Shown: positions 2,370 to 8,197 of the stretch, piece by piece | Numbering within the stretch: position 1 is the stretch's first letter | Layout: every line of letters starts with the position of its first letter | NCBI GenBank assembly: GCA_003168375.1 | Contig: PMSI01000005.1 | Location: 62,001 to 126,000, forward strand | Length of the DNA: 64,000 nucleotides | DNA from: Vulcanimicrobiota bacterium | GTDB lineage: Bacteria; Vulcanimicrobiota; Vulcanimicrobiia; Vulcanimicrobiales; Vulcanimicrobiaceae | Direction: 5' to 3' | The notes under the pieces: generated by a model | Told to the model about the DNA's origin: nothing | The model's database searches: none | Seen by the model: only the letters and a program-made list of their open reading frames with translations | Program-made: the position numbers and the translations under genes

Positions 2370-4037
2370 ATGGCGACGATCCTTTCCGACCGGCTCGGCG
2401 GCACGGTGCCGTCGACGATGTCCGACCTGCCGCTCTCGATCCGGGCGATCTTCGAGCACGCGATGAAGTCGCATCCGCGCAAGCACATCATCGCGCGCGA
2501 CGGCGGCGAGCTGCTGCGCTTCACCTACGCCGAGTTCGGCAAACGGGTCGCGAAGCTCGCGCACGCGCTGCGAAAGCTCGGCGTGAAGCCGGGCGAGCGC
2601 GTCGCCTCGTTCGCCTGGAACGGCCACCGGCACCTTGAGCTGTACTACGCCGTGCCGATGATCGGCGCCGTGCTGCACACGGTGAACATCCGGCTGTTCC
2701 CGGATCAGATCGCGTTCGTCCTCGACCACGCCGAGGACGACATCGTCTTCTACGACGGCTCGCTGGTGAAGCTGATCAAAGCGGCGGCCGCGCTCGCGCC
2801 CGGGTCGGGGCGGCGCTTCGTGCAGATGGGCGCCTCGCCCGAACCGTTCGAGGGCGCGCTCGACTACGAGACGCTGCTCGCGCCAGAACCCGAGACCTAC
2901 GATTGGCCGGAGATCGACGAGCGCGCGGGCGCGATCCTGTGCTACACCTCCGCGACGACCGGCGATCCCAAGGGGACGCTCTTCTCGCACCGCTCGACGT
3001 TCCTGCACGCGCTGGCGGCGGGACTCGCCGACTCCCTCGGCTTGACCGAAACCGATCGCGTGCTGCCGATCGTGCCGATGTTCCACGTCAACGCCTGGGG
3101 GACGCCGTTCCTTGCCCTGATGGTAGGCGCCGACTTCATCATGCCGATGGAGCGCCTCGACCCGGCCGGTGTCATCGAACTCTGCGAGTCGGAAAAGGTG
3201 ACGCTCTCGGCCGGTGTTCCGACCGTGTGGCTCGCAGTGCGCGACGCGCTGCGCGCGCAAGGGAAAACGCTCCCGCACCTCAAGCGCATCGTCATCGGCG
3301 GCTCGGCGATGCCGCGTTCGCTGATGGACGATCTCCGCGCGCTCGGGATCGACGCGATCCACGCCTGGGGGATGACCGAGATGTCGCCGATCGGCACGGT
3401 GTGCCGCGACGTCGCCGAGCTCGCCGACAATCCTGAAAAGCAGCGCGAAGAACGCTACAAGCAAGGCCGCTTCTGCCCGATCGTGCAGTGGCGCCTGGTC
3501 GATGAGAGCGGCCACGACGTCCCGCCCGACGGCCGCTCGCGCGGCGAGCTATGGGTGCGCGGCTTCGCGGTGACCGCGAAGTACTACAAGAACGAGGAAG
3601 CGACCGCGACCGCATTCGAGCCGGACGGCTGGTTCCACACCGGCGACGTCTGCACGGTCGACGAGTACGGCTACCTCGAGATCGTCGACCGCGTCAAGGA
3701 CTTCATCAAGTCCGGCGGCGAGTGGATCTCGTCGGTCGAGGTCGAGAACATCCTGATGGGCCACCCGGCGCTCAAGGAAGCCTGCGTCTTCGGCATCCCG
3801 CATCCGAAGTGGCAAGAGCGCCCCGTCGCCGCCGTCGTCGCTCGCGAGGGACACGACGTCGACGAGGACGCGGTCCGCGCGTGGATGGCCGACAAACTCG
3901 CCAAGTGGCAGACGCCCGACCGCGTGATCTTCGTCGAAACGATCCCACGCACGGGCGTCGGCAAGTTCCTCAAACGCGACCTGCGAGAAACGTTTAAAGG
4001 GCTGTTTGCGGATCAAGATGAGACACGAGGCGCCTGA
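2370..4037 (+). CDS. acyl-CoA synthetase (medium/long-chain fatty acid-CoA ligase)
   Basis: An ANL-superfamily adenylating enzyme of 555 residues that activates a carboxylic acid, probably a fatty acid, to its CoA thioester via an acyl-AMP. The phosphate-binding loop [11 protein letters not shown] is at residues 192-202; the family more often has [15 protein letters not shown] supplies the adenine-side motif, [18 protein letters not shown] is the hinge region, and the C-terminal [13 protein letters not shown] contains the catalytic Lys. Overall it resembles AlkK-like medium-chain ligases. A second in-frame ATG at 2418 (residue 17) is an alternative start. It probably works with the beta-oxidation operon at 7010-12534. 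Confidence 0.92.
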
Positions 4038-4281
4038 GGCGAGCGCAAGGTGTACCGGTAGGCTCCGAACATCCTGAGTTCGTCCACGCCGCGTCGAATG
4101 GAACGACAATATCAAAGCATGCACGACACTAGAATGACCGTCACGTCCGAGCTGGCGCGTAAGAGCGCCTTGCACCCTCTAACAAAGGCGGGGCGAGAAC
4201 GCGCACACTTTCTCCGCGTAGATACCTTGCGCTCCTTCGGTCGGTGTTCGTCTTCCGATATTTTGCAGGCACGCTAGTCAC
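4038..4281. other. left junction of the lower-GC island, no gene seen
   Basis: These 244 bases separate the acyl-CoA synthetase from the TIR gene. Base composition drops here from the strongly GC-rich coding of the left flank to mixed sequence with A/T runs, and it stays lower until about 6960. I see no convincing gene, tRNA remnant, transposase or direct repeat. The TIR gene promoter should lie here, but I cannot pick a clear -35/-10 pair. Confidence 0.4.
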
Positions 4282-5262
4282 GTGAGCAACAATGACTACA
4301 GGGACGAAGGAGGACTTGGGCCTATCTTCCTGTCGCATAGCGCGGCTGACAAGCCCTTCGTCCGACGCTTGGCAAAGACGCTGAAGGCGCATGGCTTTAA
4401 CGTCTGGCTGGACGAAAAGGAGCTCCTCATAGGGGACCCGCTGCCACAGAAAGTTTCGGAAGCGATCGACCGGGCACGAGCCGTAATTATTGTTGTTAGC
4501 GCCGCGTCGGGAAAAAGCAAATGGCTCAGATTCGAGTTGAACAAAGCCACTCAGCGAATGATTACAGGGGGATGCCGCGTCCTACCGGTCTTAATTCAAC
4601 GCGCTGAACTCTTTCCGGAGTTGTCCGCGCTGCTCTATGCCGACTTTCGTAAGCGGCCGCGTTCCGCGTGGCGCACCTTACTCGAGACATTACGCATTGA
4701 GGCATCTCGCTATCCGAAGATTCCGCGCTATCGCCTTGACAGCTCAAATGCCCTCGATCGACAACGCGCGCTCGATAAGCTAATTCAGGCAGAGTTCGAC
4801 GGCCATGGTTGGGCCGACATGGACATTAGCGCCACGCGTTCGGTATCGTGGGAGGTCTTGACGCTATATCAGAGGCCTGGCCCGGAAATCTCCGTCGCGT
4901 ATCAAGAAGTCACCGATTACATAGATAAGCGGGAACCTCTTATGATACACGACTGGGACGACTTTGTTCTGACCCAGCAAGACGAATACGGCGAACAATT
5001 CGGCCTCCTCGTGAGCCAACGCCCGCCTTCGAGTCAACTCCGCGATCAACTTTATGCCGATAGTTCACACGTCCGATATGCCGTGCACAGGCGGACTTGG
5101 CATCCAAAGGTTGCAGCAACGATTCTTTGCGATGTATCAGACCGGCCCTCCGAGGCGGCGTCGCTGGCAAGGATTCATCGGGTTCAAGCGTTGATCATCC
5201 GGCTTGATCGAGAGTCACGCGAATCTGACGCGCCGATCGGCAGCCTACATAGTTCCGATTGA
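4282..5262 (+). CDS. TIR-domain protein with uncharacterised C-terminal half
   Basis: A 326-residue protein starting at GTG. Residues 13-130 form a TIR domain: FLSHS at 16-20 begins the first strand, NVWLDEKELLIGD (40-52) is the BB-loop region, and KWLRFEL at 80-86 contains Glu85 at the position of the catalytic Glu of TIR NADases. Bacterial TIR proteins often hydrolyse NAD or make cyclic ADP-ribose signals in anti-phage defence; NADase activity here is inferred from the retained Glu. Residues 140-326 match nothing I recognise and contain no obvious membrane segment; they may sense the trigger. The gene is convergent with the SLOG gene and less GC-rich than the flanks. Confidence 0.85.
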   Translation: MSNNDYRDEGGLGPIFLSHSAADKPFVRRLAKTLKAHGFNVWLDEKELLIGDPLPQKVSEAIDRARAVIIVVSAASGKSKWLRFELNKATQRMITGGCRVLPVLIQRAELFPELSALLYADFRKRPRSAWRTLLETLRIEASRYPKIPRYRLDSSNALDRQRALDKLIQAEFDGHGWADMDISATRSVSWEVLTLYQRPGPEISVAYQEVTDYIDKREPLMIHDWDDFVLTQQDEYGEQFGLLVSQRPPSSQLRDQLYADSSHVRYAVHRRTWHPKVAATILCDVSDRPSEAASLARIHRVQALIIRLDRESRESDAPIGSLHSSD

Positions 5263-5485
5263 CTTCGTGTTCCTCGAAACACCAAGATCGCGTTTGGGAC
5301 GCAAGTTTCCGACTATGCTACAAGGAGTAGCGAAAACGTCGCGCCGGTCTCGCGCTCTACTATGCGACGCCAGCCGGTCCGACGTGGTGCGACGCGAGCG
5401 AAGTCTTCGCTTATGTTGATAGCGTTGGGCGGGCGCCGGCGACCAGAAGATCAGCCACGAAAACGCTATACCGACCGCAGCGCCT
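5263..5485. other. convergent gap between TIR and SLOG genes
   Basis: This 223-base stretch lies between two convergent stop codons. Only short overlapping frames occur on both strands, and none has a credible start with a ribosome binding site. I see no gene here. It may contain a bidirectional terminator, but no strong hairpin with a T-run is evident. Confidence 0.35.
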
Positions 5486-6370
5486 TTAGAGGGCTTCGCG
5501 CCGACGGTCGGACGCACGTTGAACTACATCGCGTGCAGCCTTTGCTTCTAGGCGTAGGCCGATTGACGAAAGCACTTTAAGTACGGTTGCAAAGTCAGAT
5601 GTTTCAAGACCGTCGAGCGTACGACCGATGCTTTCGCCTGCACGTCTCGTGTTTGCCACTTGGTCGATTCTTCTATCTCGAACGATCGCGCCAATAGCAT
5701 TTATTACTGCGGTGGCGTCGCCTATTGCAAGCGCTTTATTGAGGGCAGATGCCGTCTCTTCTGCAGATAATCCTTTACCCTGTTCAGATGCCTTCGCTGG
5801 CGCCTCGTCGAGGAGCAATAGGAGTCTCGAATCCGTCTCGATTTGCTCGCCAGACCATTCTTCGGATGTGGCGCGTTGTTTGATGTCGGCCTGCAATTCG
5901 GTGTTGCACTTGGTAATGAAGTCGCGCCATTGGTCCATGGACTTAATATTCAACGCACGCATTTCCGGAACGTTGAAGAGCACCGAGATCTTGCCCGCAC
6001 GTACAAGTCGCAGCACATTCAAGGCCGTCCCGGGACTCTTGCCGTCCCATATCATGAATCCGATGTCTGCTTGTCTCGCCATTTCGCGATCCTTAGCAGC
6101 ATAAAACTGGAATCCCTTAGCATTTGCCGGCACGCTTACGGGGTGGATGGGCCATGACCCGAGGTTGTTCCGAGGTTTCAACCCGGAGCAAAATACTGTC
6201 ACGTTTTCGTACCGAACATCGAAGAAGAATTTTTGGACAGCCTTATCTGCTCCGTTGGCGTCGCCAACGATAACCTGGTGGCCGCTAGCGACGACCTTAT
6301 CCAAACGCTTCCTGACTTCTGACGGAAGACGCGAAACGTGTCGCGAGCCGCCGATGAACACGGTGTTCAT
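5486..6370 (-). CDS. SLOG-domain protein fused to a HigA2-like antitoxin domain
   Basis: A 294-residue two-part protein. Residues 1-135 form a SLOG (DprA/LOG-like, Rossmann-type nucleotide-binding) domain: FIGGSR at 5-10, GDANGAD at 36-42, and MIWDGKSPGT near 106-115. SLOG domains bind or process nucleotide ligands and are common in conflict systems. Residues 205-276 resemble the HigA2-type addiction-module antidote domain (ALNKALAIGDATAVINAIG, then SDFATVLKVLSSIGLRL). I infer a nucleotide-sensing regulator, perhaps DNA-binding. Its ATG overlaps the stop of the upstream phosphoribosyltransferase (ATGA), so the two genes form an operon. Low GC content suggests horizontal acquisition. Confidence 0.75.
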   Translation of the reverse strand: MNTVFIGGSRHVSRLPSEVRKRLDKVVASGHQVIVGDANGADKAVQKFFFDVRYENVTVFCSGLKPRNNLGSWPIHPVSVPANAKGFQFYAAKDREMARQADIGFMIWDGKSPGTALNVLRLVRAGKISVLFNVPEMRALNIKSMDQWRDFITKCNTELQADIKQRATSEEWSGEQIETDSRLLLLLDEAPAKASEQGKGLSAEETASALNKALAIGDATAVINAIGAIVRDRRIDQVANTRRAGESIGRTLDGLETSDFATVLKVLSSIGLRLEAKAARDVVQRASDRRREAL

Positions 6371-6959
6371 TGATTGCTCCGGGTTCGCGTGATCGTAAGA
6401 GCAAGAACGCTCTTGGCGCCACCTTCTGCTAGTAAAACGTCGGTAATCGCATTCATGGTTGACCCTGACCGGAATAGATCATCAAAAAGGAGAACACGTT
6501 TGTGAAGCGTCACGGCTTTGTCGACTCTATACAGGCCGTCGAGTAATTCCAGACGTTGATCCGGATCCGTTACACCCTTGAGCTGTGTCGACGGCCGGTG
6601 GTGGTAACGCAGGAAATCACAGGTACTTTGAGTGCGGCGCCGATTCCCTCCGCGAGCACGAGCACTGGCTGGACTGCGCGCGCCGTCGATGGCGGCACAG
6701 GGACGATTAGGTCGAACTTTCCGCGGCGTTCTTGCAAGAACTCAACTGCGGTATCGACGATTGACGAAGCCGCATCCTTGTCCGCGTGATACTTTAACTG
6801 ATACAGGAGTTCAGCTATTGGCGGCCTGAGAGTGTCGAATTGCATGTGGCCGTACGCGTTATGGCCGACTGGCGTGCTGCTTGTCGTGTGTAGATCCAAC
6901 GCAATACCACCCGCAAATCTTCCAAATATGGGCTGCGGATGAATCTCGACGATCGCCAT
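6367..6959 (-). pseudogene. ComF-like phosphoribosyltransferase, frameshifted
   Basis: The product would begin MAIVEIHPQPIFG at an ATG preceded by GGAGG with ten intervening bases. It reads in one frame through SCVTTTG and then meets TAA at 6572-6570. The homologous continuation, LKGVTDPDQRLELL followed by the PRPP loop VLLFDDLFRSGSTM, is in another frame from about 6590 and ends at a TGA (6369-6367) that overlaps the SLOG start. The full length of 593 bases is one short of a multiple of three, which fits a single lost base. It could be a real inactivation or a sequencing error in the acc/ggcc-rich tract near 6590-6610. Intact relatives are type I PRTases that use PRPP. Confidence 0.7.
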
Positions 6960-7009
6960 TTTATTGCTGCCTCCACTCCCGGCCGACGTCTCCTCAGCTT
7001 TGCGTTCGG

Positions 7010-8197
7010 CTAGTTCAGGTTGACTTCGAACAGCCCCGCGGCGCCCATGCCGCCGCCGATGCACATCGTGACGACGATGAACTTTTCGCCCCGGCGTTTG
7101 CCTTCGATCAGCGCGTGCATCACCATGCGGGCGCCGCTGACGCCGTACGGGTGGCCGATCGAGATCGCGCCGCCGTCGACGTTGATCTTCTCGTTGGGGA
7201 TGCCGAGCGTGTCGCGGCAGTAGACCGTCTGCACCGCGAACGCTTCGTTCAGCTCCCAGAGGCCGATGTCGTCGACCTTCAGGCCGTGGCGTTTGAGCAG
7301 ATCGGGGACGGCGAAGACCGGGCCGATCCCCATCTCGCCGGGGTCGCAGCCGCGCACGACCATCCCGCGGTAGAAGCCGAGCGGGTTGATCCCGCGGTTG
7401 CGCGCTTCGTCCGCGTCCATGATCACGACCGCGGCCGCGCCGTCGCTGAGCTGCGATGAGTTGCCGGCGGTGATCGAGGAGTCTTTCGAGAGCACGCCCT
7501 TGAGCGAGAGCAGTCCTTCGAGCGTCGTGTCCGGACGATTGCCCTCGTCCTTCTTCAGCGTGACCGCCTCTTCGCGGAACGCCTTGGTCTCTTTGTCCTG
7601 CTCGTACTTCCAGGTCGGGAGCGGAACGATCTCGGCGTCGAACCTGCCGGCATCCTGCGCGGCCGCCGTGCGTTGCTGCGACTGCAGCGAGTACTCGTCC
7701 TGCGCCTCACGCGAGATCTTGTACTTCTTCGCGACGGTGTCGGCCGTCTGCAGCATCGGCATGTAGAGGTTCGGCTCGTGGCGGAGCGCCCACTCTTCGG
7801 TGAACTCGTGCATGTTCATGTCGTTCTGCACGAGCGAGATCGACTCGACGCCGCCGGCGACCATCACCTTCGCGCCGTCGACGATGACCCGATGCGACGC
7901 TGTTGAGATCGCTTGCAGCCCCGACGCGCAGTAACGGTTGATCGTCGTTCCCGCGACGCGCTCCGGGAGGCCGGCGCGCAGCGCGGCGACGCGGCCGATG
8001 TTGTGACCGGTCGCGCCCTCCGGGAGGCCGGTGCCGATCACGACGTCTTCGACTTCGGCCGGATCGACGCCGGCGCGTTTCACTGCGTTCGCGATGACGT
8101 GTCCCGCCATCGTCGCGCCGTGGGTTTGATTGAAAGCGCCACGGAACGCTCTGCCGATCGGCGTCCGCGCCGCTGAGACGATCGCCGCCTCAGGCAT
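7010..8197 (-). CDS. fadA: acetyl-CoA C-acyltransferase (thiolase)
   Basis: A thiolase of 395 residues, full length for the family, catalysing the CoA-dependent cleavage of 3-ketoacyl-CoA that ends each beta-oxidation round. The acylated cysteine is Cys90 in NRYCASG. The base His349 lies in GHPYGVSGAR and the second cysteine, Cys379, in MCIGGGMG. It is the last gene of the padR-fadE-fadB operon, and its ATG lies eight bases inside the 3' end of the upstream multifunctional enzyme gene. The island's PRTase begins 50 bases beyond its stop. Confidence 0.95.
   Translation of the reverse strand: MPEAAIVSAARTPIGRAFRGAFNQTHGATMAGHVIANAVKRAGVDPAEVEDVVIGTGLPEGATGHNIGRVAALRAGLPERVAGTTINRYCASGLQAISTASHRVIVDGAKVMVAGGVESISLVQNDMNMHEFTEEWALRHEPNLYMPMLQTADTVAKKYKISREAQDEYSLQSQQRTAAAQDAGRFDAEIVPLPTWKYEQDKETKAFREEAVTLKKDEGNRPDTTLEGLLSLKGVLSKDSSITAGNSSQLSDGAAAVVIMDADEARNRGINPLGFYRGMVVRGCDPGEMGIGPVFAVPDLLKRHGLKVDDIGLWELNEAFAVQTVYCRDTLGIPNEKINVDGGAISIGHPYGVSGARMVMHALIEGKRRGEKFIVVTMCIGGGMGAAGLFEVNLN

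Follow-up and report, generated by a model that had tools for sequence, protein, structure and literature searches.

The low-GC insert examined here, located in the genome of a soil bacterium, is best explained as carrying a diverged toxin-antitoxin unit of the ShosTA/PsyrTA kind, and we consider this reading likely: a PRTase, the predicted toxin, which is probably dead in this copy, is followed by a SLOG protein, the predicted antitoxin, with a HigA-like tail, and the two lie beside an independent TIR gene. On this reading, the insert represents turnover cargo at a chromosomal junction of variable content and brings together two unrelated items, the PRTase-SLOG unit and the TIR gene. The window, that is the whole 64-kb stretch of DNA analysed (G000:C5:62001-126000), belongs to a genome of 4.43 Mb in 7 contigs. 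Its relevant features are listed in Table 1.

Table 1. Coordinates in the window of the insert, its genes, its flanks and the direct repeat.
Feature	Position	Strand	Remarks
Fatty-acid ligase	2370-4037	+	left flank
Low-GC insert	4038..7009	.	between fatty-acid ligase and thiolase
TIR-domain protein	4282..5262	+	326 aa; PF13676, E 1e-28
Repeat copy 1	5250..5267	+	18-bp imperfect direct repeat (16/18); TIR 3' end
SLOG protein, predicted antitoxin	5486..6370	-	frame intact; SLOG residues 1-175, tail about 202-277
ComF/ShosT/PsyrT-like PRTase, predicted toxin	6367..6959	-	frame broken near 6597
PRPP-binding loop FDDLFRSGST (VLLFDDLFRSGST)	6457..6486	-	second frame, past break and premature stop
Thiolase	7010-8197	-	right flank
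Repeat copy 2	7011..7028	+	thiolase 3' end

Genomic setting of the insert

The earlier note on this DNA had described a sharp fall in base composition between the ligase and the thiolase, and this was borne out by three measures. Indeed, (i) the GC content of the insert is 0.553, against a mean of 0.683 (sd 0.018, minimum 0.651) in non-overlapping windows of the same size, the baseline being the 64-kb window only, (ii) its tetranucleotide distance reaches 0.53, whereas no other part of the window exceeds 0.25, and (iii) GC3 is 0.56-0.60 in its two intact genes (TIR and SLOG), against ~0.90 in the flanking genes. Nothing useful was obtained from an Rfam search, and a promoter and terminator scan gave results at chance level.

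The ligase and the thiolase are adjacent in at least eight genomes of the same genus, with variable content between them: only ~24 bp in G003, one small gene in G004, one low-GC gene in G001 whose predicted product resembles Abi-type proteins, a gene read from its sequence as a putative anti-sigma-type ATPase in G006, G009 and G010, two genes in G007, and other genes in G002 and G005; in G008, the ligase is followed by a transposase and a large repeat protein. A Uma2-like gene is also found among the junction fillers of G001-G010 (L022-L036). The filling thus changes between nearly all genomes of the genus, which makes the junction a hotspot of gene turnover; compared with G003, the island has been inserted. 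The deviant composition, a site that is empty or differently filled in same-genus genomes and, in other phyla, homologues carried by conjugative plasmids together indicate a horizontally acquired insert, so that the acquisition by transfer proposed earlier is upheld.

The two copies of the 18-bp repeat bracket the PRTase-SLOG block only, and none of 300 shuffles reached a match of 16/18. The repeat is a possible insertion footprint; its position would fit a later, separate insertion of that block.

A broken PRTase gene

Residues 1-121 of the PRTase are read from positions 6959-6597 (-) and residues 122-197, including the PRPP loop, from 6597-6367 (-), in a different frame; the first frame stops at 6572-6570. 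Relatives encode the PRTase as one open frame. The PRPP-loop PRTase overlapping the SLOG gene that had been reported previously is therefore there as far as the loop and the overlap (4 bp, at the SLOG start) are concerned, but as a frame-broken gene rather than a single intact one. Programmed frameshifting was considered and rejected, since the break lacks a slippery run and the gene is read in a single frame in relatives. A frame check against the relative G001 detected 0 frame changes in 20 conserved genes of the window, which makes a true break more likely than a sequencing or assembly error, in what is one assembly and short of proof. As the frame is broken before the PRPP loop, the toxin encoded in the window is probably dead, and the SLOG gene would have been left as a relic or as a stand-alone immunity gene.

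The PRTase ORFs of the family encode 193-202 aa and have no helicase domain. The PsyrT toxin model PDLC03928 matches the PRTases with E-values of 1.3e-7 to 2e-16, and the ShosT toxin model PDLC03962 matches the intact PRTases of the family with E-values of 1.1e-3 to 1.1e-7 (PADLOC). The best profile match of the PRTase is to positions about 503-687 of PsyrT, and the comF model TIGR00201 recognizes the 197-aa PRTase with an E-value of 2.5e-7, far below the cut-off of that model.

A SLOG protein with a predicted ShosA/DprA-like fold

The tail of the SLOG protein is HigA2/HI1420-like (PF21716, E 5e-8), as had been noticed from the sequence alone. The SLOG core (residues 1-175) was predicted with a pLDDT of about 90, and the predicted fold is ShosA/DprA-like. 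Indeed, the top PDB match of the model by Foldseek is ShosA 8zva (E 2.9e-5), the only match below 1e-3 among the PDB matches listed, followed by H. pylori DprA; the similarity to 8zva is modest, with a TM of about 0.36 over the whole query and 15% identity. Run against 12 genomes or records, the ShosA sequence model (PDLC03961) picks up chromosomal DprA-type genes but misses the SLOG gene; it gave no SLOG match in the PADLOC scans, nor did the PsyrA model (PDLC03927) match the SLOG gene. PDB sequence searches with SLOG or PRTase returned nothing useful. The PRTase by sequence and the SLOG protein by fold point independently to the same known system, and the failure of the ShosA and PsyrA sequence models to detect the SLOG protein marks the unit as a diverged relative, which is not filed here as ShosTA.

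The tail varies among members of the family, being HI1420-like or XRE in some, replaced by a separate HTH gene in others, and absent in several. On an Agrobacterium vitis plasmid (L055:3501-5026), the PRTase, the SLOG and a separate small HTH gene lie in a row; this small gene is the HTH tail of other members, split off.

The LOG-type motif is PGGxGTxxE. In the alignment of the family, the conserved SPGTxxN is without the glutamate of that motif; a role as a LOG-type phosphoribohydrolase was rejected on this ground, and a binding role is more likely for the SLOG protein.

Distribution of the PRTase-SLOG pair and one-sided loss

The nearest named match of the SLOG protein of the window comes from a Candidatus Eremiobacterota MAG. 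Relatives of this protein are encoded on 98 plasmid records, and a search of phage records and viral contigs yielded none. Across phyla, the two genes are kept together as an operon, with identities of about 24-70% (PRTase) and 35-70% (SLOG), and in intact relatives the PRTase comes first and is followed by SLOG with a short overlap or gap. The operon occurs on plasmids as well as on chromosomes and ranges from Eremiobacterota to Proteobacteria and Clostridiales, with examples in Eremiobacterota (L004), Bradyrhizobium (L005), Paracoccus (L006), an Alcanivorax MAG (L007) and a Clostridiales MAG (L008), and plasmids of Xanthomonas, Agrobacterium, Rhizobium, Sinorhizobium, Methylorubrum, Roseomonas, Sagittula, Klebsiella, Enterobacter, Pantoea and others. 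Among 398 evenly drawn Pseudomonadota genomes, SLOG lies directly downstream of all seven strong PRTase matches (two of the seven genomes had been preselected, five had not); an eighth PRTase match is weak and without SLOG.

The neighbours of the pair are mobile or defensive, namely CBASS, restriction, SIR2, TA and ArdC-like genes. On four rhizobial plasmids (L039, L040, L046 and L048), the pair adjoins a CBASS cluster (DncV-like cyclase, ThiF protein and patatin).

The PRTase is broken and SLOG intact in five loci, namely the window, L008, L040, L045 and L046 (IS insertion), not all of which are independent, L045 and L046 being related plasmids. In L047, the PRTase is broken and SLOG absent. 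Neither an intact PRTase without SLOG nor a broken SLOG with an intact PRTase was found in the loci read. Loss is thus one-sided, as expected of a toxin and its antitoxin, with the reservation that some of these plasmids are related and that the sampling of loci started in part from SLOG. SLOG is also found alone, without PRTase, in L042, L044, L057 and L058, so that it may have other roles. These stand-alone genes are carried by rhizobial (L057 Mesorhizobium, L058 Shinella), Sphingobium and Methylobacterium plasmids; in two cases a DUF2493 gene lies a short distance upstream.

The two genes could alternatively encode a ComFC/DprA-like DNA-handling pair, which would aid incoming single-stranded plasmid DNA and would not be a toxin-antitoxin system. 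An interaction between ComFC and DprA is reported from two species, and ComFC binds ssDNA (PMC9005727); the PRTase is ComF-like according to TIGR00201, the predicted SLOG fold is DprA-like, and many copies are located on conjugative plasmids, in some cases with ArdC-like, ParA or transfer genes nearby. This alternative is nevertheless unlikely: the PRTase has repeatedly been lost while SLOG was kept and never the reverse, the HTH tail, where there is one, resembles those of antitoxins, the PsyrT score of the PRTase exceeds its ComF score, and the best fold match, ShosA, is an antitoxin.

An independent TIR gene

The TIR domain spans residues 15-132, and residues 14-104 align with solved bacterial TIR NADase chains; the claim that the catalytic glutamate is retained was confirmed (E85, the WxxxE glutamate, in WLRFE). 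The gene is predicted to be an NADase-type gene of the ordinary type. For the C-terminal ~190 residues (134-326; window 4681-5259), no relatives were found in plasmids or in 60 related genomes, and an AlphaFold prediction of the protein made without relatives was of low confidence (pLDDT 39).

The earlier note had interpreted the three genes as one nucleotide-centred defence or signalling module, with SLOG and/or PRTase as maker or sensor of a nucleotide and TIR as the NAD-depleting partner. All three families are indeed of conflict type and share one low-GC insert, and the TIR protein keeps its glutamate. However, the TIR gene (+) converges on SLOG and PRTase (both -), so that the three genes cannot form one operon; a TIR profile search of 33 PRTase-SLOG loci (363 kb), in which every control TIR was recovered, found no TIR; the nearest relative with the pair, G007 (L037), carries it at another chromosomal site and without TIR; the PRTase is broken; and the 18-bp repeat that brackets PRTase-SLOG only suggests a separate arrival. 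The joint module was rejected for want of any TIR co-occurrence in the 33 loci and is extremely unlikely. What stands of the earlier reading, besides the acquisition by transfer, is the conflict character of the SLOG and PRTase genes and their co-occurrence elsewhere; the TIR gene is separate cargo, given its absence from these loci and from the surroundings of the G007 pair.

A Thoeris variant, with the TIR protein as ThsB and the SLOG protein as the cADPR-sensing effector ThsA, is the least probable of the explanations weighed. The TIR protein has a sub-threshold match to ThsB_TIR (21.1 vs 21.2 bits) and aligns to bacterial TIR NADases, and a weak ThsA match (E 0.019) comes from L043, a distant member of the family, but no SIR2 or macro domain was found on the SLOG protein of the window, its fold is predicted to be that of ShosA/DprA, with no ThsA among the 50 matches listed, and SLOG is coupled to PRTase, not to TIR, everywhere else. 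The variant was rejected on the lack of a SIR2/macro partner and on the fold. A joint module with SLOG or PRTase as the nucleotide maker or sensor is likewise not supported by the missing Thoeris SIR2 partner, the predicted ShosA/DprA-like fold and the broken frame of the PRTase, the presumed nucleotide maker.

It is also very unlikely that the insert is decayed genomic junk in which neither the PRTase-SLOG pair nor TIR is functional. The broken PRTase and the rapid turnover of junction content in the genus would agree with such decay; against it, the reading frames of TIR and SLOG are open over 326 and 294 codons, respectively, and the TIR protein still has its catalytic glutamate.

Proposed function and significance

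For the favoured toxin-antitoxin reading, the following mechanism can be proposed. The SLOG protein, with its ShosA/DprA-like nucleotide- or ssDNA-binding fold, would hold the PRTase in check, and its variable helix-turn-helix tail could bind an operator or DNA. By analogy with ShosT and RqlH, an unrestrained PRTase might use PRPP or nucleotides and thereby disturb both the purine pool and the integrity of the DNA; a PRTase set free by infection or by the loss of the mobile element would stop or addict the cell. Published data on related proteins include the following: according to a review, ShosT acts both as a phosphoribosyltransferase and as a pyrophosphatase and disturbs purine metabolism, and ShosA is DNA-binding (PMC12593503); a DprA-like protein together with a PRTase confers protection against T7 and lambda (PMC9122126); the genotoxicity of RqlH, for which the PRPP-site aspartate is needed, is kept down by RqlI, which binds to the PRTase part (PMC4670107). 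The PRTase domain of RqlH alone was not toxic (PMC4670107), so that a PRTase-only protein need not be toxic.

A more far-reaching version, which we regard as tentative and rather doubtful, is that the pair forms a third branch of PRTase-SLOG toxin-antitoxin or defence systems, overlooked on its antitoxin side by sequence-based defence catalogues, carried across phyla by plasmids and provided with exchangeable HTH tails; its loci with a dead PRTase and an intact SLOG, the window among them, would act as stand-alone immunity genes and neutralise the toxin of incoming elements that bring the full pair.

Annotation of the pair goes no further than 'ComF family protein' together with 'hypothetical' or 'addiction module antidote protein', and neither the ShosA nor the PsyrA model detects its predicted antitoxin; defence surveys would therefore miss it. 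It represents an under-recognised, plasmid-borne branch of probable PRTase-SLOG toxin-antitoxin systems, of which the window copy is a decayed member; the branch reaches Eremiobacterota and is found in about 1-2% of the Pseudomonadota genomes sampled. As a minimal, helicase-free PRTase-SLOG system, it bears on the means by which a PRTase poisons a cell and is restrained by a DprA-like fold, and the broken-toxin loci provide natural cases for the anti-addiction question.

Comparison with known systems

The TIR protein shares with the bacterial TIR NADases AbTIR, AaTIR and BtTIR the aligned TIR domain with the WxxxE glutamate, and differs from them by its unmatched C-terminal half (~190 aa).

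With ShosTA, the window family has in common two adjacent genes, a PRPP-loop PRTase matched by the ShosT model, a SLOG protein whose best fold match is ShosA 8zva, and a mobile and defence context. It differs in that the SLOG protein is missed by the ShosA sequence model and has a shorter core, in that the tail is often HigA/HI1420-like or XRE, and, in the window, in the broken frame of the toxin. PsyrTA/RqlHI consists of a RecQ-like helicase-PRTase fusion and a DprA-like antitoxin; the PRTase of the window family best matches PsyrT, and in both cases the toxin gene lies upstream of its SLOG/DprA-like partner in one operon, whereas the window family has no helicase domain and a SLOG protein missed by the PsyrA model. 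Finally, ComFC and DprA of natural transformation display the same two folds, but the window family is distinguished from them by its weak comF score, by a SLOG protein that is not a DprA orthologue and by its organization as a plasmid-borne operon.
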